From: Methylomonas aurea
Lineage (GTDB): Bacteria; Pseudomonadota; Gammaproteobacteria; Methylococcales; Methylomonadaceae
Assembly: GCF_024505045.1 (NCBI RefSeq)
Contig: NZ_JANIBM010000022.1
Span: 1 to 64,000 of the forward strand
Direction: 5' to 3'
DNA length: 64,000 nucleotides
The notes under the pieces: model-generated
What the model saw: only the letters and a program-made list of their open reading frames with translations
Told to the model about the DNA's origin: nothing
The model's database searches: none
Shown: piece after piece, positions 43,640 through 60,315 of the stretch
Position numbering within the stretch: the stretch's first letter is position 1
Layout of the letters: each line of letters opens with the position of its first letter
Translations under genes and position numbers: made by a program

Positions 43640-44230
43640 TTATTTACCGAAATCGACGGCCGGCGCGGTGGAAATCGCTTTTTCGTTGTCGACGCTAAAC
43701 GACGGCTTGGTTTTGTAACCGAACAGCATCGCCGTCAGATTGCTTGGAAACGAGCGCACCGTGACGTTGTATTCCTTGATTGCGGCGATGTAACGGTTGC
43801 GGGCCACGGTAATCCGGTTTTCGGTGCCTTCCAGTTGCGCCTGCAAATCGCGGAAATTGGCGTCGGCTTTCAAATTGGGATAATTTTCCGAAACCACCAA
43901 CAGCCTGGACAGCGCCGAACTCAACTCGCCCTGCGCCGCCTGAAACTTGGCGAAGGCCTGTTCGTCGTTGACCAATTCCGGGCTGGCCTGAATCGCCCCG
44001 ACCCTGGCACGGGACGCCGTCACCGCTTCCAGCACTTCTTTTTCGTGGCCGGCATAGCCTTTTACGGTATTGACCAAATTAGGCACCAGATCGGCGCGGC
44101 GCTGGTACTGGTTCAATACCTCCGCCCAACTGGCATTGATCTGCTCGTCCTGGCTCTGAAAGGTGTTGTACCCGCAACCGGACAACTGTAACGACAAGAA
44201 CAGAAAAAAAATCGATGACCATTTTTGCAT
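43640..44230 (-). CDS. lemA: LemA family lipoprotein
   Basis: Start at 44230 (MQKWSSIFF), with GGAG upstream. A lipoprotein signal with Cys19 (LQLSGCGYN) precedes a helical LemA domain of about 175 residues containing NQYQRRADLVPNLVNTVKGYA, ENYPNLKADANFRDLQAQLEGTENRI and YNVTVRSFPSNL. The family is found with TPM genes in many bacteria and has no settled function. It is divergent from the nitrate operon, with 638 bases between the starts. Confidence 0.93.
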   Translation of the reverse strand: MQKWSSIFFLFLSLQLSGCGYNTFQSQDEQINASWAEVLNQYQRRADLVPNLVNTVKGYAGHEKEVLEAVTASRARVGAIQASPELVNDEQAFAKFQAAQGELSSALSRLLVVSENYPNLKADANFRDLQAQLEGTENRITVARNRYIAAIKEYNVTVRSFPSNLTAMLFGYKTKPSFSVDNEKAISTAPAVDFGK

Positions 44231-44542
44231 TGTTGACTCCTGATAGAACGGCGAAGCCGATCCAGCATAACACGCAGCCGCCACAGCTTGAGAATTAAAC
44301 CGGACAACCTATCGCGGGATTTGTGCTGCATGGATTGGTCAAGAAAATCGCAGCCCCATCCCGAACCAGCCTTCTCCATCAAAAGATCGCACCGGTTGGG
44401 TCGAGTTTCACCAGTGCCTTCCAAAGCGGAACCCGCATTTTTGCTTTCCAAACGACGAAGCCTTGAATTCGGTAGAGTTCAATCAGGCACCAGTATGGCT
44501 GGCAATCAAACTGCATTTGCACCGTTTTGACTCTGATTTATC

Positions 44543-44559
44543 CGCACCATAGGGGTGCG
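44543..44559 (+). promoter_or_regulatory. NtrC-type binding site
   Basis: GCACC-ATAGG-GGTGC at 44544-44558 is a perfect palindrome of the NtrC consensus GCAC(C)-N5-GGTGC, about 155 bases upstream of the sigma-54 promoter, a normal enhancer distance. Weaker partial sites are seen at 44389-44403, 44487-44501 and 44518-44523. The 300 bases before this, back to lemA, show no other clear feature. Confidence 0.7.
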
Positions 44560-44645
44560 AAACGCCCAAACAGGAATCAACGGCAAACGATCTAAAACAA
44601 CAACAAGAGCGAAAACTTCTCGGCCAGACTCGACGGGCGCATTGC

Positions 44646-44658
44646 AATCGATTGATTA
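44646..44658 (+). promoter_or_regulatory. candidate IHF site
   Basis: AATCGATTGATTA matches the WATCAANNNNTTR consensus except at one position and lies in an AT-rich stretch between the NtrC site and the sigma-54 promoter, exactly where IHF usually bends DNA for enhancer contact. Inference from position and consensus. Confidence 0.45.
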
Positions 44659-44699
44659 TTAATGTTTTTTACCAAGAAGGCTCAAAAAAAAATAAAAAA

Positions 44700-44715
44700 T
44701 GGCATTACAGTTGCT
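44700..44715 (+). promoter_or_regulatory. sigma-54 promoter of nitrate operon
   Basis: TGGCAT-TACAG-TTGCT matches the TGGCAC-N5-TTGCW consensus with one difference, and GG (44701-44702) and GC (44713-44714) are 10 bases apart, as required. Transcription would start near 44726, giving a leader of about 143 bases before nrtA. Confidence 0.75.
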
Positions 44716-44756
44716 TAGGATTTACCAACACCCAAAGCAGGGTTACTAACTTAACC

Positions 44757-44770
44757 GCTCATTGTTGAGC
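44757..44770 (+). promoter_or_regulatory. leader hairpin with ANTAR-like hexaloop
   Basis: GCTC at 44757-44760 pairs with GAGC at 44767-44770 around the hexanucleotide ATTGTT, which has A at position 1 and G at position 4, the pattern bound by ANTAR-type antiterminators such as NasR. A second stem (GGTTA/TAACC, 44741-44756) lies directly upstream but its loop CTAACT does not fit the pattern. Confidence 0.45.
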
Positions 44771-44779
44771 AAACAAGAC

Positions 44780-44834
44780 AAAGGCGTCTTGCGCTGGATT
44801 CGATTAAGAATCCGAGCGCGGACGCCTTTTTTTT
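44780..44834 (+). terminator. intrinsic terminator in operon leader (attenuator)
   Basis: AAAGGCGTC (44780-44788) pairs with GACGCCTTT (44821-44829), continued by GCGCT/AGCGC and GGATTC/GAATCC around the loop GATTAA, and is followed by eight T. It lies upstream of the nrtA start (44869) and downstream of the sigma-54 promoter, so it would stop the operon unless antitermination occurs. Confidence 0.85.
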
Positions 44835-44868
44835 GGCCCGAACTTTTTAATCGTAGACAGGAACCGAC

Positions 44869-46263
44869 ATGAAACCAGCCCAGACGCCCGCTCCCAAGAA
44901 ACTGTTTGCCGCCGTCGCCACCGCGATCGCGTTGGCCGGAATGAGTTTTTCCACTCCATTGCAGGCCGGTGCCAAGCCCGAGAAAGAGGATTTGAAATTC
45001 GGCTTTATCAAACTGACCGATATGGCGCCCTTGGCGGTCGCCGCCGAAAAAGGCTTTTTCGAAGAGGAAGGCCTGTTCGTACAGCTTGAGGCTCAAGCGA
45101 ACTGGAAAGTAGTGATGGACCGGGTCGTCAACGGCGAGTTGGACGGCTCGCATATGCTGGCGCCGGCTCCGTTGGCAGCCGGTGTCGGCTTCGGCACCAA
45201 GGCCGACATCGAAGTCCCGTTCAGTATGGGTTTTAACGGCAACGCGATTACCGTATCCAACGATATCTGGAAACAGATGAAAGCCAATGTACCGGCGGAA
45301 GGCGGTAAACCGGTACATCCGATCAAGGCGGATTATTTGAAGCCGGTGGTCGATAAATACAAAACCGAAGGCAAGCCATTCAATATGGCGATGACCTTCC
45401 CGGCCGGCTCCCATAACATCAAACTGCGTTATTGGCTGGCGGCGGGCGGCATTAACCCAGGCTACTACTCGCCGCCGCAGGACATTTCCGGCCAGATCGG
45501 CGCCGACGCGATGCTGTCGGTCACGCCGCCGCCGCAAATGCCGGCCACACTGGAGTCCGGCACGATCTTTGGCTATTGCGTCGGCGAACCCTGGAACCAG
45601 CAAGCCGTATTCAAAGGCATCGGCGTGCCGGTCATCACCGACGAAGAACTCTGGAAAGATACGCCGGAAAAAGTGTTTGGGGTAACCAAAGCCTGGGCTG
45701 AAAAATATCCCAACACCTATCTGGCCGTGACCAAAGCACTGATCCGAGCTGCAATCTGGCTCGACGCCGAGAACAACAAAAACCGCAAGGAAGCCATCGA
45801 AATGCTGTCGCAAAAACAATACGTCGGCGCCGACGTCGAGGTACTGGCGGCCAGCATGAACGGCACCTTCGAATACGAAAAAGGAGACAAACGTTCGCTA
45901 CCCGACTTCAACACCTTTTTCCGCCACGGTGCCAGTTATCCGTCCTACAGCAGCGCGATCTGGTATCTGACCCAATTGCGGCGCTGGGGCATGATCAACG
46001 AATACAAACCGGATAATTGGTATCTGGAAACCGCGAAAAAAGTCTACCGCCCCGACATCTATCTGGCGGCCGCGAAAGAACTGGTGGCAGAAGGCAAGGC
46101 CAAGGCCGAAGACTTTCCGGCCGATACCGGTATCAAACCGTCGCAAAACTTCTTCATCGACAAAATTCCGTTCGACGCCAACAAGCCTAACGATTATCTG
46201 GCCAAGTTCCCGATCGGCCTGAAAGGTAAGCAAACCGTGTCCGGCGGCAAAGTCGTGGATTAA
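44869..46263 (+). CDS. nrtA: nitrate ABC transporter substrate-binding protein
   Basis: A 464-residue NrtA/CmpA-family periplasmic binding protein. The signal peptide has lysines KK at 14-15 and a hydrophobic core, cleaved near QAGA; there is no twin-arginine. Diagnostic segments: FIKLTDMAPLAVAAEKGFFEEEGL, the MLAPAPLAA ligand region, GSHNIKLRYWLAAGGI and CVGEPWNQQAV. Cmp (bicarbonate) and Nrt (nitrate) are close relatives, but the downstream nitrate reductase settles nitrate or nitrite as substrate. CAGGA precedes the ATG. First gene of the operon. Confidence 0.93.
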   Translation: MKPAQTPAPKKLFAAVATAIALAGMSFSTPLQAGAKPEKEDLKFGFIKLTDMAPLAVAAEKGFFEEEGLFVQLEAQANWKVVMDRVVNGELDGSHMLAPAPLAAGVGFGTKADIEVPFSMGFNGNAITVSNDIWKQMKANVPAEGGKPVHPIKADYLKPVVDKYKTEGKPFNMAMTFPAGSHNIKLRYWLAAGGINPGYYSPPQDISGQIGADAMLSVTPPPQMPATLESGTIFGYCVGEPWNQQAVFKGIGVPVITDEELWKDTPEKVFGVTKAWAEKYPNTYLAVTKALIRAAIWLDAENNKNRKEAIEMLSQKQYVGADVEVLAASMNGTFEYEKGDKRSLPDFNTFFRHGASYPSYSSAIWYLTQLRRWGMINEYKPDNWYLETAKKVYRPDIYLAAAKELVAEGKAKAEDFPADTGIKPSQNFFIDKIPFDANKPNDYLAKFPIGLKGKQTVSGGKVVD

Positions 46264-46378
46264 CAGAACCTTGGTGGGTGCTCTGAAAAGGAAGTGGTTT
46301 AGTGCAAGGACGCTTTTTTACCCAGGCAAGCTAATAAATCACCTGAATTGATTGATAACCTTTCGATAGGTAAGCGCG

Positions 46379-47392
46379 ATGGCTAACAAACTGATTAAAT
46401 TTTTCAACATCACCGGCCTAACCTGGTTCGTGCCGCTGGTCAAAATCGCCGCCGGCGAGAATCCGGCCCAGCAAATGCGGCAATTGTTTCTGGTCATGGG
46501 CGTTCCCGTCATCGCCTTTGCCATGTTCCTGGGTTTGTGGAGCGTGTCCGCTTCCGGCGTCAAAACCAGCCTGGGCGCGATTCCCGGACCGATTGCGGTC
46601 TGGGGCGAAGTCGGCGGCCTGATCGAAGAGCATGTCTCGGAACAGACCAAGAAAGCGGAGTTTTACCAACGCCAGGAACAACGCAACAAGGAAAAACTGG
46701 CCGAAGATCCGAATGCGGAAATCAAGATTCGCCCCTACACCGGCAAACCGACCTACCTGGACAAAATTCTGACCAGCCTGCGTACCGTATTCGCCGGCTT
46801 TGTGATTGCAACCTTGGTGGCAGTGCCGCTCGGCATTCTGTGCGGCATGAGCCCGGTGCTCAATACCGCGTTCAACCCGCTGATCCAAATTTTCAAACCG
46901 GTGTCGCCGCTGGCCTGGCTGCCTATCGTGACGCTGGTGGTTAGTGCGGTCTACGTCACCAGCGAAGACTCGTGGTTCGAAAAATCCTTCATCACCTCGG
47001 CCATCACCGTGACGCTGTGCTCGCTGTGGCCGACGCTGATCAACACCGCCGTCGGCGTATCGTCGATCGACCGCGATCTGGTCAACGTCGGCAAGGTGTT
47101 ACGGCTGGATTGGTCGACCCAGATCAAACGCATCATCCTGCCGTCCGCCCTGCCCTTCATCTTCACCGGCATGCGCTTGTCGCTGGGCGTGGGTTGGATG
47201 GTATTGATCGCCGCCGAAATGCTAGCGCAGAACCCGGGTCTGGGCAAATTCGTCTGGGACGAGTTTCAAAACGGCAGCTCCAACTCGCTGAGCCGGATTA
47301 TGGTTGCGGTGTTCACGATCGGCATCATCGGCTTCGTCCTCGACCGCATCATGCATTCGCTGCAAAACCTGTTCTCGTTCCAAAAAGCTTAA
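46379..47392 (+). CDS. nrtB: nitrate ABC transporter permease
   Basis: A 337-residue inner-membrane permease with one N-terminal segment (about 38-58), a charged loop and five more segments. The EAA-type loop near the C-terminal third, contacting the ATPase, is represented by [23 protein letters not shown] (in part). The fold is that of NrtB/SsuC/TauC. AGGTAAG is the ribosome site. A 115-base gap after nrtA holds no visible gene. Substrate specificity follows from the operon. Confidence 0.93.
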
Positions 47393-47402
47393 GGACGCCG
47401 CC

Positions 47403-49157
47403 ATGAACGCAGCCCAAGCCAAAATCATCGAACTTTCCATGCATAAACACGCCACCGTTTCCCCTGCCAACGATCCGATCAAACCGTTGGTGGAACTGAA
47501 AAACGTCTGCAAATCCTACGGCGAGGGCAATAGCCGCACTTCGATTCTGAAAGACATCAACCTGGACATCAAGGAAGGCGAATTTATCGCCATCGTCGGC
47601 TTTTCCGGCAGCGGCAAAACCACGCTGGTCTCGCTGATCGCCGGTCTGATCTATCCTGACAGCGGCGAACTGCTGAAAAACGGCCAGGCTATTCGCGAAC
47701 CAGGGCCGGACCGCGGCGTGGTATTTCAAAATTATTCGCTGATGCCGTGGCTGACCGTCTACGAAAACGTGGCGCTGGCGGTGGATGCGATCTTCAAGGA
47801 CTGGACGCCGCAGCAACGCCGCGCCCACACCGAGAAATACGTCAACATGGTCAATCTGGGCCGGGCGATGGATAAAAAGCCGTCGGAACTGTCCGGCGGC
47901 ATGCGCCAACGGGTCAACGTCGCCCGCGCTTTGGCGGCCAACCCGGATATCCTGCTACTCGATGAACCGCTTAGTGCGCTGGATGCTTTGACCCGCGGCA
48001 ATCTGCAGGACGAAATCCTGCAAATCTGGGAACAGGACCGGAAAACGGTGATTCTGATCACCAACGACGTCGACGAAGCCATCTACATGGCCGACCGGGT
48101 GATTCCGCTGAAACCCGGTCCGGATGCCACCTTCGGTCCGGATTTCGTCATTGATTTGGAACGGCCGCGCGACCGCACCGCCTTGAACCACGATCCGGAA
48201 TTCAAACGCCTGCGCGCCGAAATCACCCGTTACCTGATGGACATCGGCCTGCAAAAAACCCAAGCCGAGATCGGCGACAAACTGAAGCTGCCCAACGTGC
48301 GCCCCAACACCAGCAACGACTGGAAACTGGATACCTCGGCTTTGAAACCGAGCCAGGCCGATCTGGGCCGGCCGCGTTACCTGGAATTCTCCAACCTGTC
48401 GAAAATCTATCCGACGCCGGACGGCAACAGTACGGTGAAGGTGGTGGACGGCTTCGATCTGAAAATGAAAAAAGGCGAGTTCGTCTCCATCATCGGCCAC
48501 TCCGGTTGCGGCAAATCGACCGTGTTGTCGATGACCGCCGGCCTCAACGAAATCTCCGAAGGCGGCATCATTCTGGATAACCGCGAAATCACCAGCGCCG
48601 GTCCGGACCGCGGCGTGGTATTTCAGGCCCCCAGCCTGTTCCCTTGGCTGACCGCGTTCGACAACGTCATGCTCGGCGTCGATAAAGTCTATCCGCACGC
48701 CAGCCAGGACGAGCGCGAGGACATCGTCGAATATTATCTGACCCGGGTCGGCCTGGCCGACAGTATGTTCAAGAAAGCCGCCGACATGTCCAACGGCATG
48801 CGCCAGCGGGTCGGCATCGCCCGCGCCTTCGCCTTGTCGCCTAAACTGTTATTGCTCGACGAACCGTTCGGCATGCTCGATTCGTTGACCCGCTGGGAAT
48901 TGCAGGAAGTGCTGATGGAAGTTTGGGAACGCACCCACGTCACCGCCATCGTCGTCACCCACGACGTCGACGAAGCGATTCTACTGGCCGACCGGGTGGT
49001 AATGATGACCAACGGCCCGCACGCCAAAATCGGCAAGATCCAGGAGATCGACCTGCCCCGGCCGCGCAGCCGCAAGGCCTTGCTCGAACATCCCGATTAT
49101 TACCAATACCGGGAGAGCCTGTTGACCTTCCTGTCCGAATGCGACCACACCCACTGA
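47403..49157 (+). CDS. fused dual-ATPase subunit of nitrate ABC transporter
   Basis: A 584-residue protein with two ABC ATPases, start at 47403 (MNAAQAKII). Domain 1: Walker A GFSGSGKT (66-73), signature LSGGM (163-167), Walker B D187-E188, but Asn221 stands in the H-loop (TNDVDEA). Domain 2: Walker [10 protein letters not shown] (365-373), signature MSNGM (462-466), Walker B D486-E487, intact His520 (THDVDEA). So the site built from NBD1 Walker residues and the NBD2 signature has two changes, whereas the other is consensus. Cyanobacteria keep these as separate NrtC and NrtD. There is no NrtA-like extra domain. Confidence 0.88.
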
Positions 49158-49198
49158 TTTTTTAACGCTTACTCGTTTTTATTTGCCAAGGGGGCATT

Positions 49199-50512
49199 AT
49201 GCCATTGCAGAAAAACCAATTACCGTCCGCCACGCTGCTGTCGATGGCAATCGCCAGCGCGCCGGCCTCCGCCGACCTGACCAAGGAGGTGGAAGATGCG
49301 CTGAATTTTTACCATTACGGCAGCAACGGCGCGGTAAAACTGGACTTGAACTACCGCTGGGAAAACGTCGACCAGGACCAGGGCCCGGTGATTCCCGGTA
49401 AAGCGCCGCGCCGGGTCGAGACCGCAAACGCCAACACCGCCCGCCTGCGGCTGGGTTTGCTGTCGCCGACGTTCCACGACTTCCAGGCTTATGTCGAATA
49501 TGAAGGCAACTATGCGTTGCAGGAAGATTACGACCAGGGCGGCACCACCACTAACCGCCACCGCGACTATTCGCTGGTTGCCGACCCCGACCGCAGCGAA
49601 TTGAATCAGTTTTGGCTGAGTTACAAAGGCATCCCGGATACCTTGATCAAAGTCGGCCGCCAACGCATCAAATTCGACGACGACCGCTTCATCGGCAACG
49701 TCGGTTGGCGGCAAATGGAAATGACTTACGACTCGATACTGCTGACCCACAACAACCAGACCATTTTCGGCCTGACCGTCAACGCCGGCTATCTGGACCA
49801 CATCCAAAACATCTTCGGCGAAACCGAAACCATCAATGCCCCGATCCTGAACCTGAACTACAAAGTCGGCGACTGGGGGAATATGATCGGTTACGGCTAT
49901 TGGCTGGACTACCGGCAACGCGAAAACTACCACAAATCGTCGCAGACTTACGGCTTGCGCTTCGACGGTAAGTCGCCGCAGTTTTTCGACAAATTGAATT
50001 TTCTGTATACCGCGGAATGGAGCAACCAGCTCGACTACGGCGACAATCCCAATCATTATCAAGCCGACCGCTTCAACTTCATGGGCGGTGTCAGCGCCTT
50101 CAACCTGAGTCTGCAAGGCGCTATCGAACAGCTGAACGGTTACGGCTATACCAATAACGTCACGAGCAGCAACGGCAGCACCTACAAATCCTTCCAGACC
50201 CCGCTCGGCACCAACCATGCCTTCCAGGGTTGGGCGGATTTGTTCCTGACCACGCCCGCCGCCGGTATTCGCGACGTGTTCGCCACCGCCACCTACAAAA
50301 TGATGAACGACAGCCTGATCGTCACCGGGGTCTACCACGACTTCTACGACGATACCGGCGGCATCGAGTACGGTAGCGAATGGGATTTCTCGATCTTGAA
50401 GAAATTCGGTAAGCACTACTCCTTGTTAGCCAAGTACGCCAATTTCAACACCGAAAACGCGGCGTTTACCGATACCCAAAAAATCTGGCTGCAAGCCAAC
50501 GTCAGCTTCTAA
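49199..50512 (+). CDS. alginate-export-type outer membrane barrel protein
   Basis: A 437-residue protein with a cleaved signal peptide (near SAPASAD, about residue 22). The mature chain is full of alternating beta strands ending in WLQANVSF, a typical aromatic C-terminal Phe. Segments such as LNYRWENVDQD, RLRLGLLSPTFHDFQAYVEYEGN and WLSYKGIPDTLIKVGRQRIKFDD resemble the AlgE/OprE-like alginate export family. Here it probably acts as a diffusion pore for nitrate into the periplasm. GGGGG precedes the ATG at 49199. Substrate inferred from context. Confidence 0.75.
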   Translation: MPLQKNQLPSATLLSMAIASAPASADLTKEVEDALNFYHYGSNGAVKLDLNYRWENVDQDQGPVIPGKAPRRVETANANTARLRLGLLSPTFHDFQAYVEYEGNYALQEDYDQGGTTTNRHRDYSLVADPDRSELNQFWLSYKGIPDTLIKVGRQRIKFDDDRFIGNVGWRQMEMTYDSILLTHNNQTIFGLTVNAGYLDHIQNIFGETETINAPILNLNYKVGDWGNMIGYGYWLDYRQRENYHKSSQTYGLRFDGKSPQFFDKLNFLYTAEWSNQLDYGDNPNHYQADRFNFMGGVSAFNLSLQGAIEQLNGYGYTNNVTSSNGSTYKSFQTPLGTNHAFQGWADLFLTTPAAGIRDVFATATYKMMNDSLIVTGVYHDFYDDTGGIEYGSEWDFSILKKFGKHYSLLAKYANFNTENAAFTDTQKIWLQANVSF

Positions 50513-50520
50513 AACCCCGT

Positions 50521-50547
50521 CGGACCGGGTGTTGCTGGCCCGGTCCG
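50521..50547 (+). terminator. GC-rich hairpin inside nitrate operon
   Basis: CGGACCGGG (50521-50529) and CCCGGTCCG (50539-50547) are perfect inverted repeats around a 9-base loop, 8 bases after the barrel gene stop. There is no T run. It may stabilise or partly attenuate between the transporter genes and the reductase genes. Confidence 0.45.
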
Positions 50548-50574
50548 GCTACTGAATAGTTACTAGACAAAGCG

Positions 50575-51798
50575 ATGAAACTGAAACTGGTAGTCATAGG
50601 CAACGGCATGGCAGGTATGCGTACCGTCGACGAATTGCTGCAATTGGCGCCCGAACGCTATCAAATCACCGTGTTCGGCGCCGAGCCGCACGGCAATTAC
50701 AACCGGATCATGTTGACTCCGGTACTGTTCGGCGCCAAGAGCATTGCCGAGATCATGATTCACGACTTCGATTGGTACCGCAAACACCGCATCACTCTGC
50801 ACTGCGGCCCGGACAAAACAGTGGTCGACGTCGACCGCGCCCGGCGCCGGGTGATAGCCCGGGACGGCACCGAAGCCGAATACGACTATCTGCTGCTGGC
50901 CACCGGTTCCCTGCCGTTGATGCTGGACATCCCCGGCCGCGAATTGCGCGGCGTGTTGGGATTTCGCGATATTGCCGACGTGCAAACCATGATTGCCGCC
51001 GCGGCCAGCAAAACCCACGCAGTCATCCTCGGCGGCGGCTTGCTCGGCCTGGAAGCCGCCAACGGCCTGTTGCAGCGCGGCATGCAGGTCAGCGTGGTCA
51101 ACCGCGCCGGCCATCTGCTGAACAAACAACTGGACCGGCAAGCGGCCGGATTTTTACAGCAACAACTGGCCGGCAAAGGCATCGAATTCCATCTCGGCTG
51201 CACGATAGGCCGCATTCTCGGCGAGGACGGCCAGATCCACGCCGTGCAGCTCAGCAACGGCGAAATACTGCCGGCGGACCTGCTGGTGATGTCGACCGGT
51301 ATCAAACCTAACATCGCCTTGGCCGAACGCATCGGTTTGCAATGCGAGCGCGGCGTCATCGTCGACGATCTAATGCAAACCAGCGATCCGCGGATTTTCT
51401 CGGTCGGCGAATGCGTGCAACACCGCGGCGAATTGTTCGGCCTGGTCGCGCCGGTGTACGAACAGGCCAAAGTCTGCGCCCGCCAATTGTCGGGCCACGC
51501 CGGCAGCATTTACCAAACTCTGTCCTCGGCGACGATGCTGAAAGTCACCGGCATCGATCTGTTTTCGGTCGGCGATTTCGAGGGCGACGCCGACTGCCAA
51601 ATTCTGCAATTGATCGACCACGGCCTCGGCGTCTACAAGAAAATCGTATTGCGCGGCGACATCGTGATCGGCGTGATCTTGTACGGCGACACCAGCGATA
51701 GCGCCTGGTATTTGAATCTGGTCAAGGACAAGACGCCGATTGCCGCGATCCGCGATCGCCTGATGTTCGGCCAGACGCCGTTGGCCGCCGCCGCTTAA
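50575..51798 (+). CDS. FAD/NAD(P)H reductase of assimilatory nitrate reductase
   Basis: A 407-residue pyridine nucleotide-disulfide-type reductase like the N-terminal part of NirB and Klebsiella NasC. FAD motif VVIGNGMAGMR (7-17), NRIMLTPVLFG, NAD motif ILGGGLLGLEAANGL, FAD-end DPRIFSVGECVQH. It would pass electrons from NAD(P)H to the nitrate reductase. It stops where NirB would begin its [2Fe-2S] and siroheme region, so it cannot reduce nitrite. It lies 10 bases from nasA. Confidence 0.88.
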   Translation: MKLKLVVIGNGMAGMRTVDELLQLAPERYQITVFGAEPHGNYNRIMLTPVLFGAKSIAEIMIHDFDWYRKHRITLHCGPDKTVVDVDRARRRVIARDGTEAEYDYLLLATGSLPLMLDIPGRELRGVLGFRDIADVQTMIAAAASKTHAVILGGGLLGLEAANGLLQRGMQVSVVNRAGHLLNKQLDRQAAGFLQQQLAGKGIEFHLGCTIGRILGEDGQIHAVQLSNGEILPADLLVMSTGIKPNIALAERIGLQCERGVIVDDLMQTSDPRIFSVGECVQHRGELFGLVAPVYEQAKVCARQLSGHAGSIYQTLSSATMLKVTGIDLFSVGDFEGDADCQILQLIDHGLGVYKKIVLRGDIVIGVILYGDTSDSAWYLNLVKDKTPIAAIRDRLMFGQTPLAAAA

Positions 51799-51808
51799 CC
51801 GTTACGCC

Positions 51809-54490
51809 ATGACTCTAGCAACCGTTAAAACCACCTGCCCCTATTGCGGCGTCGGCTGCGGCATCGAAGCCACGGTCGAAGATCCCGTTGCGCATCGGGT
51901 CACCATCAAAGGCGATCCCGAACATCCGTCCAACTTCGGCAAATTATGTTCGAAGGGCGCCACGCTGGGCGATACCGTCTCGCTGGAAAACCGCTTGCTC
52001 TACCCTGCCGTCAACGGCCAACGTTGCGATTGGGATAGCGCGCTCGATCACGTCGCCAGCCGCTTCCGGCAGATCATCGCGGAACACGGACCGGACGCCG
52101 TGGCGTTTTACGTTTCCGGCCAATTGCTGACCGAAGACTATTATGTCGCCAACAAACTGATGAAAGGTTTCATCGGCTCGGCCAATATCGATACCAATTC
52201 CCGCTTGTGCATGTCGTCGGCCGTGGTCGGCTACAAACGCGCCTTCGGCGCCGATACCGTGCCCTGCAGTTATTCCGACCTGGAACTGGCCGATTTGATC
52301 GTGCTGGTCGGTTCCAACGCCGCCTGGTGCCACCCGATTGCGTTTCAACGCATCCGCAAGGCCAAGGATAACAATCCGCAGTTAAAAGTCGTCGTCGTCG
52401 ATCCGCGCCGCACCGCCAGTTGCGATATCGCCGACCTGCATCTGCCGTTGAAACCGGGCATGGACGCGCTACTGTTCAACGGACTTTTATGCCACCTGCA
52501 GCGCGATGGCCGAATCGACCACGACTACGTCGCCAATTTCACCAACGGCTTCGCCGAGGCGCTGCGCCAAGCCGAAGCCAGCGCCGGTTCGGTGGCCGCG
52601 GTCGCCGCCGGTTGCGAGCTGGACCCGGCCGATGTCGCCCAATTTTTCGCTTGGTTCGCCGATACCGAACGCAGCGTCACGGTTTATTCGCAAGGCATCA
52701 ACCAATCCAGCTCCGGATCGGACAAATGCAACGCCATCATCAACTGCCATCTGGCGAGCGGCCGGCTGGGCAAACCTGGCATGGGACCTTTTTCGTTCAC
52801 CGGCCAACCCAATGCGATGGGCGGCCGCGAAGTTGGCGGTCTGGCCAACATGCTGGCAGCGCACATGGACTTGGACAATCCGGTGCATGTCGACCGGGTC
52901 GGCCGGTTTTGGCACAGCGAACGAGTGGCGAACAGACCCGGATTGAAAGCGGTGGACATGTTCGAGGCTATCGCCGCCGGCCGGATCAAGGCGGTCTGGG
53001 TCATGGCCACCAATCCGGTGGTGTCGATGCCGGACGCCGACCGAGTCAAGCAAGCGCTGCAACGCTGCGAATTCGTCGTGGTATCGGATTGCATCGCCGA
53101 TACCGACACGGCCCAACTCGCGCACGTATTGTTGCCTGCCACCGGTTGGAGCGAAAAGGACGGTACCGTGACCAATCTGGAACGGCGCATTTCACGGCAA
53201 CGGCCGTTGTTTCCGGCTTCCGGCGAAGCCCGCCACGACTGGTGGATCATTAGCCGGGTGGCGCAACACATGGGCTTTACCGAGGCCTTCGCTTACCAAT
53301 CCAGCTCCGAAATCTTTCGCGAACATGCGGCGCTGTCGGCTTTCGAGAACGACGCCGAACATCAATTACGCGACTTCGATTTGTCGGCCTTCGCCGCGAT
53401 CGACCAGACCGAATTCGATGCACTGCAACCGGTGCAATGGCCGGTAACCCGCGACCGGCCCCAAGGCAGTCCGCAACTCTTCGCCGACAAACTTTTTTAT
53501 ACCGCCGACCGCAAGGCCAGATTTATTCCGGTCGCGCCGCAAGGGCCGCGCCATAGCGTCGACGCCAACTACCCGTTCACGCTGAACACCGGCCGCTTGC
53601 GCGACCAATGGCATACGATGACCCGCACCGGACTGGCCGCAAAACTGAATGCGCACCGGCCGGAGCCCTTCGTCGAAATCCATCCCGCCGACGCCGAGCG
53701 TTTGCATCTGAAGAACCGCAGTCTGGCCCACATCGAAAGCCGTTGGGGGCAAATGTTGGCCCGGGTCGAAATCGGCGCCGGCCAACGCCAAGGCAGCTTG
53801 TTCGTCCCGATGCATTGGACCGGGCAATTGAGCAGCCACGGCCGGATGGGCGCCTTGGTCAACCCGGTGGTGGACCCCTACTCCGGCCAACCGGAAAGCA
53901 AACAGACTCCGGTCAGAATCACGGCCTGGCCGGCCACCTGGTATGCGACGATCCTGGCGCGGCAACCGTTGACGATCCGGGATTGCGAATACCAGGTCAA
54001 AGTCCGCGGCGACCAGTTTTACCGTTACGAGCTTGCCGGCAGCGGCGCCGGCAAAGACTGGCGCCAGTGGAGCCGGGATTTGTTTGCCGAGCACGGCATG
54101 GCCGGCGCGGGCGACTGGCTGGAATACAGCGATCTGCAGGCCGGCTATTACCGTTGCGCCTACGTTAACGACAATCGACTGCAAGTCTGTCTGTTGGTCG
54201 GACCGGATTTCGAGTTGCCGGAGCCGGGCTGGTTGTGCAGCCTGTTCCCGAAACCGGAACTGAGCCGCAGCGAACGCCTTGCCTTGCTCAGCGGCCAGCC
54301 GCCGAAAGGCGAAGCCGATATTGGCCGAATCGTCTGTTCGTGTTTCAATGTCGGCGAAAAAACCATTCAACAAGCGGTGCAAGCCCAAAAGTTACAAAGC
54401 GTGGCAGCGATCAGCGCCTGCCTCGGCGCGGGCAGCGGCTGCGGTTCCTGCGTCGCCGAATTGAAGGAGTTTTTGCCTCAGCCCGGTTAA
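51809..54490 (+). CDS. nasA: assimilatory nitrate reductase catalytic subunit
   Basis: An 893-residue molybdopterin enzyme reducing nitrate to nitrite. The N-terminal [4Fe-4S] cluster is bound by C10, C13, C17 and C47 (CPYCGVGC...KLCSKG). The Mo-bis-PGD body follows, with MSSAVVGYKRAFGADTVPCSYSD, and a C-terminal molydopterin-binding domain (NTGRLRDQWHTMTRTG). Residues 838-893 form a BFD-like [2Fe-2S] domain with C843, C845, C878 and C881, so electrons can come from the neighbouring reductase. No signal peptide: cytoplasmic. No nitrite reductase follows. Confidence 0.96.
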   Translation: MTLATVKTTCPYCGVGCGIEATVEDPVAHRVTIKGDPEHPSNFGKLCSKGATLGDTVSLENRLLYPAVNGQRCDWDSALDHVASRFRQIIAEHGPDAVAFYVSGQLLTEDYYVANKLMKGFIGSANIDTNSRLCMSSAVVGYKRAFGADTVPCSYSDLELADLIVLVGSNAAWCHPIAFQRIRKAKDNNPQLKVVVVDPRRTASCDIADLHLPLKPGMDALLFNGLLCHLQRDGRIDHDYVANFTNGFAEALRQAEASAGSVAAVAAGCELDPADVAQFFAWFADTERSVTVYSQGINQSSSGSDKCNAIINCHLASGRLGKPGMGPFSFTGQPNAMGGREVGGLANMLAAHMDLDNPVHVDRVGRFWHSERVANRPGLKAVDMFEAIAAGRIKAVWVMATNPVVSMPDADRVKQALQRCEFVVVSDCIADTDTAQLAHVLLPATGWSEKDGTVTNLERRISRQRPLFPASGEARHDWWIISRVAQHMGFTEAFAYQSSSEIFREHAALSAFENDAEHQLRDFDLSAFAAIDQTEFDALQPVQWPVTRDRPQGSPQLFADKLFYTADRKARFIPVAPQGPRHSVDANYPFTLNTGRLRDQWHTMTRTGLAAKLNAHRPEPFVEIHPADAERLHLKNRSLAHIESRWGQMLARVEIGAGQRQGSLFVPMHWTGQLSSHGRMGALVNPVVDPYSGQPESKQTPVRITAWPATWYATILARQPLTIRDCEYQVKVRGDQFYRYELAGSGAGKDWRQWSRDLFAEHGMAGAGDWLEYSDLQAGYYRCAYVNDNRLQVCLLVGPDFELPEPGWLCSLFPKPELSRSERLALLSGQPPKGEADIGRIVCSCFNVGEKTIQQAVQAQKLQSVAAISACLGAGSGCGSCVAELKEFLPQPG

Positions 54491-54509
54491 CTCGACGCGC
54501 ACAAGGACC

Positions 54510-55685
54510 ATGCCTGAAAAATCAACGCTATTTCCCTATTTTCAACCCATCATTGCGATAGCCAGCAGCAAAATCGTCGGTTACGAAGCCTTGGCCCGCC
54601 AAAACGATGCCAAGGGCAATGTGGTTTCCGCCGGCGCCCTGTTCTCTTCCGCCGATGTGGACATCAAACAGCGTACCGAACTGGACCGACAGGTACGCTG
54701 GCAAGCCCTGGAAAAATTCTCGCAGCAGGCCGATAGCCAAACCTATCTGGCGCTGAACATTTCGGCGGCCTGGATCGAGAATTTGCGCCAACTCAATGCC
54801 TTGCCGACCCTGCGCATGCTGGAAGAGTTGAATATCGACCGCCAACGCATCGTCGTCGAAATCTCCGACGCCCACGTCGATCCGCACAAGTTGAAACAGA
54901 TCGTGCAGCGTTACCGCAAACACGGCCTGCGGGTGGCGATCGGCGACTTCGGCGCCGGTTCCTCGCAACTGGAACGGGTGATCGCAATCCAGCCCGACAT
55001 CATCAAGATCGATATGCGTTTGTTCAAGCGCGCCGCCCGCGGCAGCAGCATCGCCACCGACATCGTGCATCTGATGTCGCGCCTGGGCCAACGCACCGGC
55101 GCCCGCATCGTCTGCGAAGGCGTGGAAAGCGACGAGGAATTTTTATTCGGCTTGAACTGCGGCGCCCAATTCATGCAGGGCTTTTTGTTCGCCAAAGCCG
55201 AAGCCGATTTCCTGCCTGTCAACAGTTTCGAGCAACACGTGGCCTCGCTGCGCAGTAAATTCGTCAAGAACACGCTGCCGCGGGTACAAAAGGAGATCAA
55301 CGCGATCAACGCCACCAAGGCTTTGATTTATCGCTTGGCGCAAACGTTGCAGGACGATTTCAATCTGAACGAGCTGGTCAGTTGGAATTTCACTCAAAGC
55401 GGCGTGATCCGGTTCTATCTGTGCAACAACCAGGGCGACCAGATTTCGCCGGATTTCAATTTCAACGAAAACCAATGGTTTACCGATCCGCGCAAGATCG
55501 GCTTCAACTGGTCCTGGCGGCCTTATTTCTTCCAACTGCTGGCCTTGGAAAACTGCGGCGACCGCGACCGGGTGGTCACCTCGGAGCGCTACCGCGATTT
55601 CGAGACCAGCCAGCTCTGTAAAACCTTGGCACTACGCCTGGACCACGAGCGAATTTTGCTGGTGGACACGGTGGCTGGCGATTAG
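54510..55685 (+). CDS. degenerate EAL-domain protein with YkuI-like sensor
   Basis: A 391-residue soluble protein. The EAL domain (about 5-250) keeps E26 (YEALAR), N83, E117, K166, E203 and Q223, but the metal-binding DDFG is IGDFG (G145 in place of the first Asp), so phosphodiesterase activity is doubtful and it may only bind cyclic di-GMP. Residues about 270-391 look like the PAS-like C-terminal domain of YkuI (NFTQSGVIRFYLCNNQ, FNENQWFTDPRKIGFNWSWRPYF). It lies 19 bases after nasA, so it belongs to the nitrate operon. Confidence 0.8.
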   Translation: MPEKSTLFPYFQPIIAIASSKIVGYEALARQNDAKGNVVSAGALFSSADVDIKQRTELDRQVRWQALEKFSQQADSQTYLALNISAAWIENLRQLNALPTLRMLEELNIDRQRIVVEISDAHVDPHKLKQIVQRYRKHGLRVAIGDFGAGSSQLERVIAIQPDIIKIDMRLFKRAARGSSIATDIVHLMSRLGQRTGARIVCEGVESDEEFLFGLNCGAQFMQGFLFAKAEADFLPVNSFEQHVASLRSKFVKNTLPRVQKEINAINATKALIYRLAQTLQDDFNLNELVSWNFTQSGVIRFYLCNNQGDQISPDFNFNENQWFTDPRKIGFNWSWRPYFFQLLALENCGDRDRVVTSERYRDFETSQLCKTLALRLDHERILLVDTVAGD

Positions 55686-55717
55686 CCCCTGATTGTTCGT
55701 ATCGGCCGCCGAGTCGA

Positions 55718-56047
55718 TTGGGCCATGGCCTTGCGACTCACCATAAATTGCAGGTTATTCAGGCGCAGTTGCTGCAATCGGAAAAAATGTCGTCGATTGG
55801 CCAACTCGCGGCTGACATTGCTCGCTACGCCATCGAAAAACACGGCGTGATCACGATCGCGACAGGCTGCGGCGACGGCCGGGTCTGGATCGAAATCGGC
55901 GACACCGGCTCCGGAATGACCGACTAGCAACCGGGCTGCATTTTCGATGCCTTTTACACGACCAAACCGGTCGGCAAGGGTACCGGCCTGGGTTTGACGA
56001 TTTCTTAAGGGATTGTCAAAAGACACGGCGAAAACGCCGGCGCATAA
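55718..56047 (+). pseudogene. remnant of sensor histidine kinase
   Basis: A decayed HK. The first part reads QAQLLQSEKMSSIGQLAADIA, the typical lead-in to the phospho-acceptor helix, then jumps straight to HATPase text: IEKHGVITIATGCGDGRVWIEIGDTGSGM, a stop TAG at 55925, FDAFYTTKPVGKGTGLGLTIS, a stop TAA at 56006, GIVKRHG, a final TAA. The phospho-acceptor His and the N-terminal half of the ATPase domain are deleted. It directly follows the EAL gene and its reading frame has no clear start. Confidence 0.8.
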
Positions 56048-56091
56048 CACCGCATCCCGTTACGCATCGGCCCGGATTCAAACGGTTCGGA

Positions 56092-59000
56092 TCATTTTAG
56101 TTTACTGAGATCGGTTTGTTCATAGTGGATGACCGCATCCTGCATGGCCTTGCGTAAGTCATCATCGTCCCAGGGCTTGGTTTGATATCTGTAGATTTCG
56201 CCTTTGTTGATCGCCTCGGTGATCGAAGTGACGTCCGCATAACCGGACAGGATCATTCTGACCATACGAGGGTGCATGACTTTGACTCGCGACAAAAACT
56301 CGGTCCCGCTCATCCCGGGCATCCGTTGATCGGAAAGTATCACCATCACAGGATTGTTGGCCAACAATTCCAGCACCTCTTCACCGCTGCCTGCCGTCAG
56401 AATTTCATAGCCATCCCGACGCAGGCATCGTCTCAAGGCCGACAATATATTGGGCTCGTCGTCCACCAGCAAAATGGTGGCTTTGTGTTCGTCGACCGGC
56501 ATGGCCACTTTGGTTCCAGCATTCAAGAGCCGCACAATTTCGCCGGCGGGCAATGGGCGGCTGAAGCAATAGCCCTGGATCTGGTCGCACTGCAGTTTTT
56601 TCAGATAAGACGCTTGGGCCTGAGTTTCCACGCCTTCGGCGATGATTTTCAACCCCAGGCTATGCGCCATGGCAATGGTGGCCTGCACAATTACCGCGTC
56701 ATTGGCATCGCTGACGACGTTATCGATAAAGCTTTTATCGATCTTCAATTTATCGACCGAAAATTGCTTGAGATAGGAAAGAGAGGAATAACCCGTGCCG
56801 AAGTCGTCGATCGAAAGATGAATACCCAATAATTTGAGTTGCTTCAGCAGGACCTGGGTTTCCGCTACATCGGTCATCAACACGCTTTCTGTCAATTCCA
56901 GATCGATGCAATGCGCCGGCAATCCGGTTTCCTCGATTAACTGCCGTATCAAATCGACCAGATCGCCGGATTGCATTTGCACGGCCGAGGCATTGACCGC
57001 AACCAAGAAATTATGATGGGTCAGCCCGGCATCCAGCCATTGCTTTGCTTGCAGCATGGCTCGCTTCAAGATCCAGTTTCCCAATGGCATGATCAAACCC
57101 GATTCCTCGGCCAACGGGATAAATTTGACCGGCGGCAGAAAACCCTGGAGCGGATGATTCCAGCGCACCAACGCTTCCAGACCGATGATGGTGCCCGACG
57201 CCAGATCGATCTGCGGTTGGTAGTAAAGCTCGAATTCTTCGCGCGCGATGGCATGGCGTATGTCATTCGTGAGCGCTATTCTGGAGAGCAATTGTTCGTT
57301 CATTGTCCGTTCGAAAAAACGGAGGTTGGAGAGCTTGTCCGATTTAGCGTGATTCAACGCAATCCCTGCCCGCTGCACCAATTCGGTGGCAGACTTGCCG
57401 TCGGTCGGATAAAAACTGATGCCGATCTTGGCCTCAAGGTGAATTTCATGTTCGCTCAGAATCACCGACTCGGTGATCGCCGCCAGCAGGGCTTCAGCCA
57501 GTTGTTCGGCATCCAATGGACTATTGATGCTGGGACAAGCGATATTGAAGTTGTCCTTTGCCATTCGGCTGACGATACCCTCGCTTCCGGCAGCCTTGAC
57601 CAGTCGATTGGCAACGACTTTCAGGGTCTGATCACCAATTTCATAGCCATAGGTATCGTCGATCGTATGAAAATTACCGATATCCAGGCGCAAAACCGCG
57701 ATGGCATGGCGTTGGCGCTCGGCCTCGGCGATGAGGGACGACAATTGATCGTCGAAAAAAAACTGATTCGGCAGGCCGGTAACCGGATCGTAACGCGAGA
57801 GTTCGGTGATGCGATCCTCCATCTGCCGGGTCTGGGTCAAATCGTTGACGATCGCCACAAACACGGGCGGCTGATCGTCCGTTATCTCCAGATGCACCTC
57901 GACCGGATACAAACTGCCGTCTTTGCGGCGATGTACGGTAGAAAAATCGCAACGGCTTTTGAGGCCGGCTCTCAGCGGAGCGCATAACAATTCAAACGTC
58001 TCTTTTGGCAGGTCGGGTTTGATATCCAACGGCGTCATTTGTTCGAGTTCCTGCATCGTGTAGCCCAGGTTGTCGCGACCACCTTGATTGACGTCTATGA
58101 AGCGCAGCGTCTCGCTGTCAAAAATGTAGATTTCATTGGTGGAACGTTGCAAGACGTGGGAAAAACGTTCGGCTTTTTTCTCGATACGCTTCCGCTGCAC
58201 GATACGCCAAATATCGTTAGAAATGAGCTGGACCGTTTCGACATCCAGATCGGTGTAATCGACCGGTTTGTTGCCAACTCCCGCCAACATCACTACTTTG
58301 CCGTTTTCGATGACCGGTACCGAGATCAGGCGGAGCAACTCGGAATGGCCTTCCGGTAGGCCGTGTTTGTTCGGATAGTTCGGGTAGTCGTTGAAAATGA
58401 CTGGTTGGCGCTTCTTCACTGCATCCGCCCAGATGCCGGCCTGACTGACCGGGTAGTGCTTGTCGTAGGCGACATGACAGTAGTGCTTCAGGGTACGGCG
58501 CGACCAAGTCACCAGTTCGATGATTTCTTCATCGTCGTGTACGAAATGCACAAAAGCAATTTTGCTACCTGTCAGGTCTTCCGCCAGTTCCATGCCGCGC
58601 TGCATGAAATCGGTTTCGCTCAGTTCCTCCGACGCTTTGGGCAGTTGCAGCAGGCCTTGAGCGCGCTGCGCCAACAGTATCAAGCGCTGCTCGTTTTCCA
58701 TGCGCTGGGTGACATCGATAGCAACCCCATCCCAAATGACGCTGCCATCGGCTTGCAACTGCGGACTGGATTGCACGGCAATCCAGCGCTGACGGCCATC
58801 GGGAAGTTTGAACAGCAAAGTCCCCTTGTAGACTTTTAATTCCCGCAAGCACTCGGCTTCGTCCTGGCGATAGCCCTCGAGGGAATCGGGGGTCATTTGG
58901 GCAAATAATGGATCGGCATCCTTCAGTAGTTGCAAGGGTTGCAGCCCATGCAATGTCTCCACGCCCGCACTGATATAACGAAAACCGCCCCGACCATCCT

Positions 59001-60315
59001 GCCCTATCTGATACCGGTAAACGTAACCGTCCGGCAGGTTGTCGCCCATTACCCGCAATTGGTGTTCCCTTTCGCGCAAAGCAGCCTCGGCCTCGACTCT
59101 GGCGCTAACATCGTGGAGCAGACCGTCGATCGTCGTCACATCGCCCTGTGGGGTGCGGTTCAGTTTGGTGAATTCCTCAATCCAGATCCAATGGCCATCT
59201 CCATGCAAGAATCGATATTCCAAGCGGTAGTCATCCGGGCCATGAGCGATATGCTCGCGGATTTCGGCTTCGACACGCACCAGATCGTCGGCAGGCAGTA
59301 AATTAGCGAATTTGATCTTGCCGGAACGCAGATCTTCCGCACGATAGCCCCAATTCGAAATGTTGGGACTGATGTAGCTGACCGGCCAGTCCTCTGCATT
59401 TCGCCAGGTAATAGCGATCACTGGAGAACGGCTGACGATGCCATCGAGATGCTGTAACTCGGCGTTGCGCAGTTCTATCAGTTGTTCGAAATATTGATGG
59501 AGTCGACTCAGTTCCAGATGGGTGCGCACTCTTGCCCTTACTTCGTCGATATCAAAGGGTTTGGTAATGTAATCGGCGGCGCCAATCGAAAACCCGCGCA
59601 CCTTTTCCACCGAACTATCGATCACACTGACGAATATGATTGGAATGCGAGTGCCTACCGCCGTTGCCTTGATACGCCGACACACCTCGTAGCCATCGAC
59701 TTCCGGCATCAGAATATCCAGTAGAATCAAATCCGGCGGTTTGGGGCCCAGCACAATGTCGATTGCCTTACGGCCGTTGTTAGCCACCATGATGCGGTAT
59801 TCGTCATTCAACGCTTCGGCCAGTTCATGGATGTTTTCCGGCATATCGTCCACCAGCAGCAGGGCCGGGCGCTCTTCCCTGACCAGAATCTTCTCGCTGA
59901 GGGATACCAGCGGTTTGCGTCGATAGTGACGCAATTCCAGCTGGGTCTTGATGCGCTGTTTCAATAGCTCGGGATTGACCGGTTTGGCAATGTAATCCGC
60001 GGCTCCCAATTTCAGCCCGGTGGCTTCGTCGGCAGACTCCGACAACGCGGTGACGAAAATAACCGGAATATCGGCAGTGGCGGGGTCGGTTTTCAGCCGA
60101 CGCAATACTTCATAACCGTCCATGCCGGGCATTTTGATATCCAGTAAAACCAGATCCGGTCCGGGAATACGATAGGCAATTTCCAAGGCTTTTTCGCCGT
60201 TGGTTGCGGCCAAAATCGCGTAATCGTCGCGCAGAGCGCTCAACAAGGCGTGCAGGTTCTCGTTAACGTCATCGACGATCAGGATGCGGGGCTTGCCGTT
60301 TTTAGAGTCAGGCAC
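56092..60315 (-). CDS. multi-domain regulator: REC-REC-PAS-PAS-GAF-PAS-GGDEF-EAL-REC
   Basis: A 1407-residue soluble protein. Receivers at about 8-125 (D59) and 150-270 (D200), PAS at about 290-405 and 425-540, GAF at about 560-705, PAS at about 715-830, GGDEF at about 840-1000, EAL at about 1015-1260, receiver at about 1280-1395 (D1329). The GGDEF signature is AKDNF (about 919-923), so cyclase activity is lost. The EAL domain keeps [26 protein letters not shown] and AEGVE, so it should hydrolyse cyclic di-GMP. It follows the upstream hybrid kinase by 13 bases, so that kinase may phosphorylate it. Confidence 0.92.

Follow-up and report, generated by a model that had tools for sequence, protein, structure and literature searches.

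An EAL-YkuI_C protein encoded at the end of a Methylomonas nitrate operon lacks one metal ligand and is a candidate c-di-GMP receptor

Introduction

Why should a set of genes for nitrate uptake and reduction end in a gene for an EAL-domain protein, and what can that protein do when the metal-binding DDFG motif of its EAL domain is altered? The question is raised by a window of 64,000 nucleotides of Methylomonas aurea DNA (the whole stretch that was analysed), in which an EAL-YkuI_C gene directly follows a nasA-type nitrate reductase gene. A first-pass annotation, made from the sequence of the window, had proposed that the product is a cyclic di-GMP (c-di-GMP) receptor that couples nitrogen supply to lifestyle, rather than an enzyme. 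To our knowledge, the role of YkuI-type proteins is unclear. Judged by title or the start of the abstract, none of the literature matches listed dealt with an EAL protein encoded in a nitrate operon or belonging to an ANTAR regulon; most subscription journals lay outside the scope of that search, which makes this a weak sign of novelty. Here we describe the gene, its control signals and its relatives, and weigh what the altered protein may do.

Results

The EAL-YkuI_C gene closes a nitrate assimilation operon

The features of the locus are collected in Table 1. The product of the last gene scores above the Pfam cut-offs for both of its domains, and its predicted structure (mean pLDDT 90.4) aligns over the full length with YkuI in its complex with c-di-GMP (2w27_B; TM-score 0.85, 23% identity), so that the protein belongs to the EAL family and, as far as a predicted model can tell, to the YkuI type within it. 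The nearest named record is a protein of M. koyamae SM2 (97% identity). The sole basis for a relation of the YkuI_C domain to Cache domains is a weak match to the sensor protein 3by9 (E = 0.00044), whose domain we take to be a Cache domain.

Table 1. Features of the nitrate operon and of its leader in the window
Feature	Coordinates	Strand	Evidence or remark
sigma54-type -24/-12 site TGGCATTACAGTTGC, TGGCA-N6-TTGC	44700..44714	+	consensus match only
ANTAR (NasR/NasT)-type antitermination leader	44717..44836	+	model R1, 91.1 bits (one of 21 training sequences); paired and covarying helices
hairpin ACCC-AAAGCA-GGGT, A1/G4 hexaloop	44730..44743	+	helix 1 of leader alignment A3
hairpin GCTC-ATTGTT-GAGC, A1/G4 hexaloop	44757..44770	+	helix 2 of leader alignment A3
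third hairpin CAAGAC-AAAGGC-GTCTTG, A1/G4 loop	44774..44791	+	overlaps 5' arm of terminator
intrinsic terminator AAAGGCGTC...GACGCC + T8	44780..44834	+	helix 3 of A3, largely invariant; pairing in 100% of cells across 21 leaders
nrtA-type nitrate-binding protein	44869..46263	+	NMT1_2, 323.8 bits
nrtB-type ABC permease	46379..47392	+	TIGR01183, 158.3 bits, under cut-off 209.05
nrtC/D-type ABC ATPase, two domains	47415..49157	+	TIGR01184, 608.5 bits, cut-off 291.8
Alginate_exp-family outer-membrane porin	49199..50512	+	PF13372, 37.9 bits
NAD(P)H flavoprotein reductase, nasB-like	50575..51798	+	Pyr_redox_2 and Rubredoxin_C
nasA-type assimilatory nitrate reductase, BFD [2Fe-2S] domain	51809..54490	+	NCBIfam NasC, 455.4 bits, under cut-off 1100
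EAL-YkuI_C gene, last of the nas operon	54510..55685	+	391 aa; ORF, Pfam and predicted structure
EAL domain, residues 4-229	54519..55196	+	PF00563, 151.9 bits, cut-off 31.3
codon 145 GGC (Gly), DDFG position 1	54942..54944	+	equivalent to RocR D295, PA3825 D160
YkuI_C domain, residues 237-386, perhaps Cache-like	55218..55667	+	PF10388, 55.1 bits, cut-off 26

The gene starts 19 nt past the end of the nasA-type gene and on the same strand (54490 to 54510), exactly the gap reported in the first-pass annotation. The nasA-type product carries Molybdopterin, Fe4S4, Molydop_binding and BFD domains and reached an NCBIfam cut-off in none of the matches listed; the names nasA and nrtB thus rely on domains and on scores short of the NCBIfam cut-offs. 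The 19-nt gap leaves no room for a usual promoter, and a scan of 44200-56200 for sigma70-type sites returned two (4.6 expected), neither of them before the EAL gene. A separate promoter with unrelated regulation, which the first-pass annotation had named as counter-evidence, is rejected as far as sigma70-type sites in this interval go.

On the 3' side of the EAL gene lies the remnant of a histidine kinase gene (55820-56026; 44.6% identity over 74 aa to a kinase at locus L182), and related kinases (about 40% identity) are found downstream at loci L002, L003 and L004. A downstream kinase as the constant partner of the EAL protein is unsupported, since its presence varies and the window holds a remnant. 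Convergent with the nas operon, the minus strand at 56092-60315 encodes a 1407-aa protein with three receiver domains, PAS, GAF and GGDEF domains and an EAL domain of the DDFG type.

A sigma54-type element and an ANTAR-type leader precede the operon

Upstream of the nrtA-type gene, at 44700, stands a -24/-12 element that makes the operon a candidate for sigma54 dependence by consensus match; such an element likewise heads the leaders of relatives. ANTAR target leaders are described in PMC3369936 as containing hairpins with A1/G4 loops, one of which overlaps a terminator, and for Paracoccus PMC3795266 reports binding of NasT to a nasA leader. The leader in the window has this architecture, with two A1/G4 hairpins, the second overlapping the terminator (44757-44770, 44774-44791 and 44780-44834). 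The model and alignment were built from 21 leaders; L127 contributed three, L167 two and every other locus one. In them 98.7% of the cells pair and 19 cells have changed on both sides, and neither value was reached by any of 500 shuffles. Two of the five covariation measures, the number of both-sided pairs (3) and that of further pair types (9), were no higher than in the shuffles. No Rfam RNA reached the gathering score in the window.

When the model was run against its own genome (150 of 1268 candidates scored), two matches were obtained, one at the nas operon (itself used in training) and the other, weakly, before nirB (E = 0.006), where the site also carries the exact core GACAAAGGCGTC. 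The nirB product scores 1096.8 bits for TIGR02374 (cut-off 578.35). In the same region (L191:8323-13353), divergent from this nirB, lies the only ANTAR gene found in the genome; it encodes a REC-ANTAR protein and follows, with a 4-nt overlap, a NarK-type MFS gene (TIGR00886, 308.8 bits, just under the cut-off of 311.7). A NasS-like paralogue of NrtA was not found: the single NrtA-type match in the genome (E ≤ 0.001) is nrtA itself, and the NasS-NasT pair, in which NasS is a paralogue of NrtA, is accordingly not seen in this genome.

The first Asp of the DDFG motif is replaced by Gly in nasA-adjacent orthologues

The DDFG motif of the protein reads IGDFG, with Gly145 in the place of the first Asp. 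The first-pass reading of GDFG was correct and is shared, as the same GGC codon, by 16 of the 17 orthologues that lie next to nasA (hereafter the nas clade); what it had missed is a second change, in the ELTE-type motif at positions 119/120. Position 119 is Ser in 17/17 of the nas clade and Thr or Asn in 14/14 other Methylomonas copies, and position 120 is Asp or Asn within the clade. Since GGC is common to 16 genomes, Gly145 is beyond chance, and a sequencing or annotation error is excluded.

Over 90 aligned copies of the family, position 145 is Asp in 72 (including L015), Gly in 16, Asn in one and unreadable in one; the 73 copies outside the nasA-adjacent set have Asp in 71 and Asn in one, the region being absent from one. 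Gly145 thus occurs in 16/17 nasA-adjacent orthologues against 0/72 other readable ones. The sole nasA-adjacent exception, L015, has GAC and hence DDFG, and comes from a genome that is 78% complete. The cultured strain Methylomonas sp. LW13 has GDFG (locus L036). In the genome of the window, all 30 other EAL domains compared (the best 30 of 45 EAL matches) have DDFG. Eight positions mark the nas clade against 70 other full copies (residue in at least 16/17 of the clade, absent from the 14 other Methylomonas and in at most 3/56), and two of these, 119 and 145, lie in metal motifs. Q12, E26, R30, N83, E117, D146, K166, D168, E203, E206 and Q223 are kept in 17/17. Altered metal motifs of other kinds are present at L128 (DHYG, with EVI), L130 (DSFG), L149 (DNFG) and L161 (NNFG, with EVL), none of them directly after nasA.

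In PA3825 the first Asp of the motif, Asp160, holds metal M1 together with Glu39, Asn98 and Asp130, and also M3 in the product state, while the second Asp holds M2 (PMC5301497); in RocR, D295 and D296 are both among the metal ligands listed in PMC7911125. With Gly145, the protein lacks the complete set, including both Asp residues of DDFG, required of an active EAL phosphodiesterase. Because loss of the first Asp removes the M1 (and M3) ligand, we predict very little or no hydrolysis, and judging from the sequence we regard impaired catalysis as likely. Weak metal binding with slow hydrolysis is conceivable, because E26, N83, E117, D146 and E203 remain. An altered metal site next to a conserved nucleotide pocket is the pattern of a degenerate EAL receptor, to which the protein would belong on these residues, although such a site is not in itself a sign of ligand binding.

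The altered site is a derived state of one maintained clade

Orthologues (E ≤ 1e-60) were found in 31/37 genomes of the genus and 89/237 of the family. Seventeen of the 31 genus copies (L001-L017) lie directly after nasA with gaps of 17-36 nt, 16 of them with GDFG and one with DDFG; the other 14 (L018-L030 and L122) are not after nasA and all have DDFG, and ten of these 14 genomes have nasA elsewhere (E ≤ 1e-150). Short flanks limit the reading of neighbours at L116, L118 and L122. The phylogeny of nasA-adjacent EAL genes that the first-pass annotation had called for places all 17 on one side of one branch (SH-aLRT 94), in a quick search without bootstrap over 87 copies and two outgroup rows, with the motif columns and three partial rows (L141, L180 and L181) left out. 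On this tree position 145, the Asn of L161 included, needs at least three changes; as L015 falls inside the nas clade, its DDFG is either a reversal or a sign of two losses. The altered site is a derived feature of a single clade within Methylomonas, not one that nitrate-linked EAL-YkuI_C proteins share in general.

NG86 omega, computed for 34 pairs drawn from 12 of the 17 copies, is 0.019-0.062 over the whole gene and 0.009-0.076 over the EAL domain; four DDFG relatives, compared in six pairs, give much the same (0.035-0.058). Since omega is low, the gene is maintained; with no internal stops besides, a pseudogene is excluded. Genes on the 3' side of the EAL gene differ among the seven loci examined.

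Orthologues of other genera carry nitrogen-type signals

We compared 73 loci of the family that lie outside the nas clade (L109-L181); the flanks of some are short. On the EAL strand, 167-607 nt upstream of the gene, the leader model matched at L127 (a training sequence), L146, L165, L167 and L176; weak matches at L155, L173 and L175 ran over the chosen EAL start, and a leader-type element at L160 was found by a pattern scan. At L155, L160, L173 and L175 the hairpins immediately precede the start codon and lack a terminator. All nine orthologues with leader-type elements of their own belong to genus g21 and have DDFG. At the 14 other Methylomonas loci the model found no leader before the EAL gene, its one match (L111) lying at nrtA. 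Sigma54-type elements occur within 300 nt upstream at 16/73 loci, where the loci's own rate predicts 1.1. Four of these elements are doubtful: those of L157 and L168 may be decayed ANTAR coding sequence, and those of L122 and L180 fit the consensus poorly.

At L141 (g38), L147 (g33) and L150 (g20) the EAL start follows the end of an ANTAR coding sequence after 3, 11 and 13 nt, respectively; each of these sequences is an open frame with the domain above cut-off. Eroded ANTAR tails precede the EAL gene at L127, L162, L165, L167 and L176 (scores 48-93, against 38 for the best of 730 shuffles), with borderline cases at L168 (39) and L149 (37). In the neighbour survey, ANTAR gaps were counted from where the tblastn match stops, and the match at L130 looks truncated. 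Nitrate-type genes (nrt, nas, nirB or ANTAR) were present within about 8 kb at 22/73 loci. One of them, L133, has the gene row nrtABC-porin-EAL-MCP-nasA in another genus and its EAL domain keeps DDFG, so a nitrate operon alone does not bring the loss of the metal ligand. ANTAR is present in 69/89 genomes with an orthologue and 70/148 without, and nrtA in 74/89 and 75/148 (neither comparison corrected for relatedness). Co-occurrence is thus partial rather than strict, and since 7/9 genomes of genus g36 with an orthologue lack both nrtA and ANTAR, the use of the EAL-YkuI_C family is wider than nitrate.

ANTAR-type leaders also lie 3' of the EAL gene (L127:10677-10801, L165:11315-11440, L167:10708-10832 and L155:8055-8175), followed at these four loci by a PAS-MCP chemotaxis gene (MCP domains were read in the copy at L158); these are hints of nitrate-regulated chemotaxis receptors in that genus.

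The adjacency to nasA in 17/17 copies, the sigma54-type site with the ANTAR-type leader, and the nitrogen and nitrate signals at orthologues elsewhere uphold the link to nitrogen supply made in the first-pass annotation. We consider it very likely that the EAL-YkuI_C gene is part of the operon and tied to nitrogen.

Discussion

The EAL-YkuI_C protein would be made together with the proteins of nitrate uptake and reduction. We infer that the sigma54-type promoter answers nitrogen limitation and that the NasT-like ANTAR protein of this genome acts at the nrtA leader as an antiterminator in response to a nitrate signal. The family probably descends from an active c-di-GMP phosphodiesterase. In the clade of Methylomonas whose gene follows nasA, the first Asp of DDFG was lost; there hydrolysis is predicted to have vanished or become very weak, and the c-di-GMP pocket stays. 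The present role may be the binding of c-di-GMP, perhaps with a small ligand in YkuI_C, and output through a changed partner. The earlier proposal of a receptor rather than an enzyme is plausible, because omega is low, the M1 ligand is gone and the pocket residues have been retained, and a c-di-GMP receptor function is our best guess, rather better than even. The fuller statement, that a nitrogen-linked phosphodiesterase has become non-catalytic or barely catalytic, probably binds c-di-GMP, is made with the nitrate proteins and acts on a partner, has in our judgement a slight balance of probability in its favour.

The protein could still be a phosphodiesterase whose remaining ligands hold metal well enough, in which case switching on the operon would bring c-di-GMP down, either slowly or with a different metal or pH. 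Conservation of E26, N83, E117, D146, K166, E203 and E206 in 17/17 copies would fit this, as would the DDFG of L015 inside the nas clade and of the orthologues with leader-type elements of their own. However, the M1 ligand is gone, the adjoining EITE motif has changed in the same clade, and Gly has been kept in 16/17 copies alongside low omega; we regard continued hydrolysis as unlikely. YdiV and CsrD act by protein interaction independently of c-di-GMP, and a module of that kind might, for example, hold a regulator or enzyme of nitrate assimilation. The altered metal site is in keeping with such a role, and in other genera the gene of an ANTAR regulator is the direct neighbour, but the pocket residues checked are all kept in 17/17 copies, and a nucleotide-free role would not need them, which leaves this reading improbable.

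Another form of partnership is suggested by the ANTAR coding sequences that in three genera stop 3, 11 or 13 nt short of the EAL gene, the eroded tails in a fourth and the lack of a NasS-like paralogue here: in this methanotroph family the EAL-YkuI_C protein might be the signalling partner of the NasT-like antiterminator, in the place of NasS, with c-di-GMP or a YkuI_C ligand gating nitrate-responsive antitermination and the nas-clade protein a pure receptor. We consider this a long shot. Finally, the gene might be a passenger at the operon end with a generic role, Gly145 being neutral or slightly harmful; 14 other Methylomonas carry the gene away from nasA, ten of them with nasA elsewhere. 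Against a passenger, adjacency has been kept in 17/17 copies (17-36 nt) though the downstream genes differ among the seven loci examined, omega is low, and nitrogen-type signals stand at the orthologue in other genera, so that we regard this reading as very unlikely.

The locus offers a natural case of a c-di-GMP enzyme that lost one metal ligand in the clade where its gene joined a metabolic operon. Controls are built in, since sister species have orthologues with DDFG and one clade member has DDFG too. A YkuI-type protein is moreover given a defined setting here, that of nitrate assimilation with signals of the sigma54 and ANTAR types, and because the setting is defined, the role of a YkuI_C protein becomes testable.

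Among known systems, the leader resembles those of NasR and NasS-NasT in its A1/G4 hairpins, one of them overlapping the terminator (PMC3369936), and the single ANTAR protein found in the genome has the REC-ANTAR architecture of NasT (PMC3795266). The differences are that nrtA is the sole NrtA-type match in the genome, with no NasS-like counterpart, and that in three other genera the direct neighbour of the ANTAR gene is the EAL-YkuI_C gene. YkuI of Bacillus subtilis (2bas, 2w27) shares the order EAL then YkuI_C, the full-length fold and a sequence match of 145.4 bits; it has Asp first and Asn second in the motif, whereas the Methylomonas protein has Gly first and Asp second, and this Asp-Asn makes YkuI an inexact model. 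The active EAL phosphodiesterases RocR and PA3825 share the fold and nearly all active-site residues, but retain the first DDFG Asp, the M1 ligand, where the Methylomonas protein has Gly. FimX and LapD also have an EAL domain with an incomplete metal site, and theirs is binding without hydrolysis, according to PMC3527489, PMC3032553 and PMC7288161. FimX keeps 4/10 catalytic residues and LapD has a degenerate GGDEF domain as well, whereas the Methylomonas protein has lost one metal ligand and carries YkuI_C.
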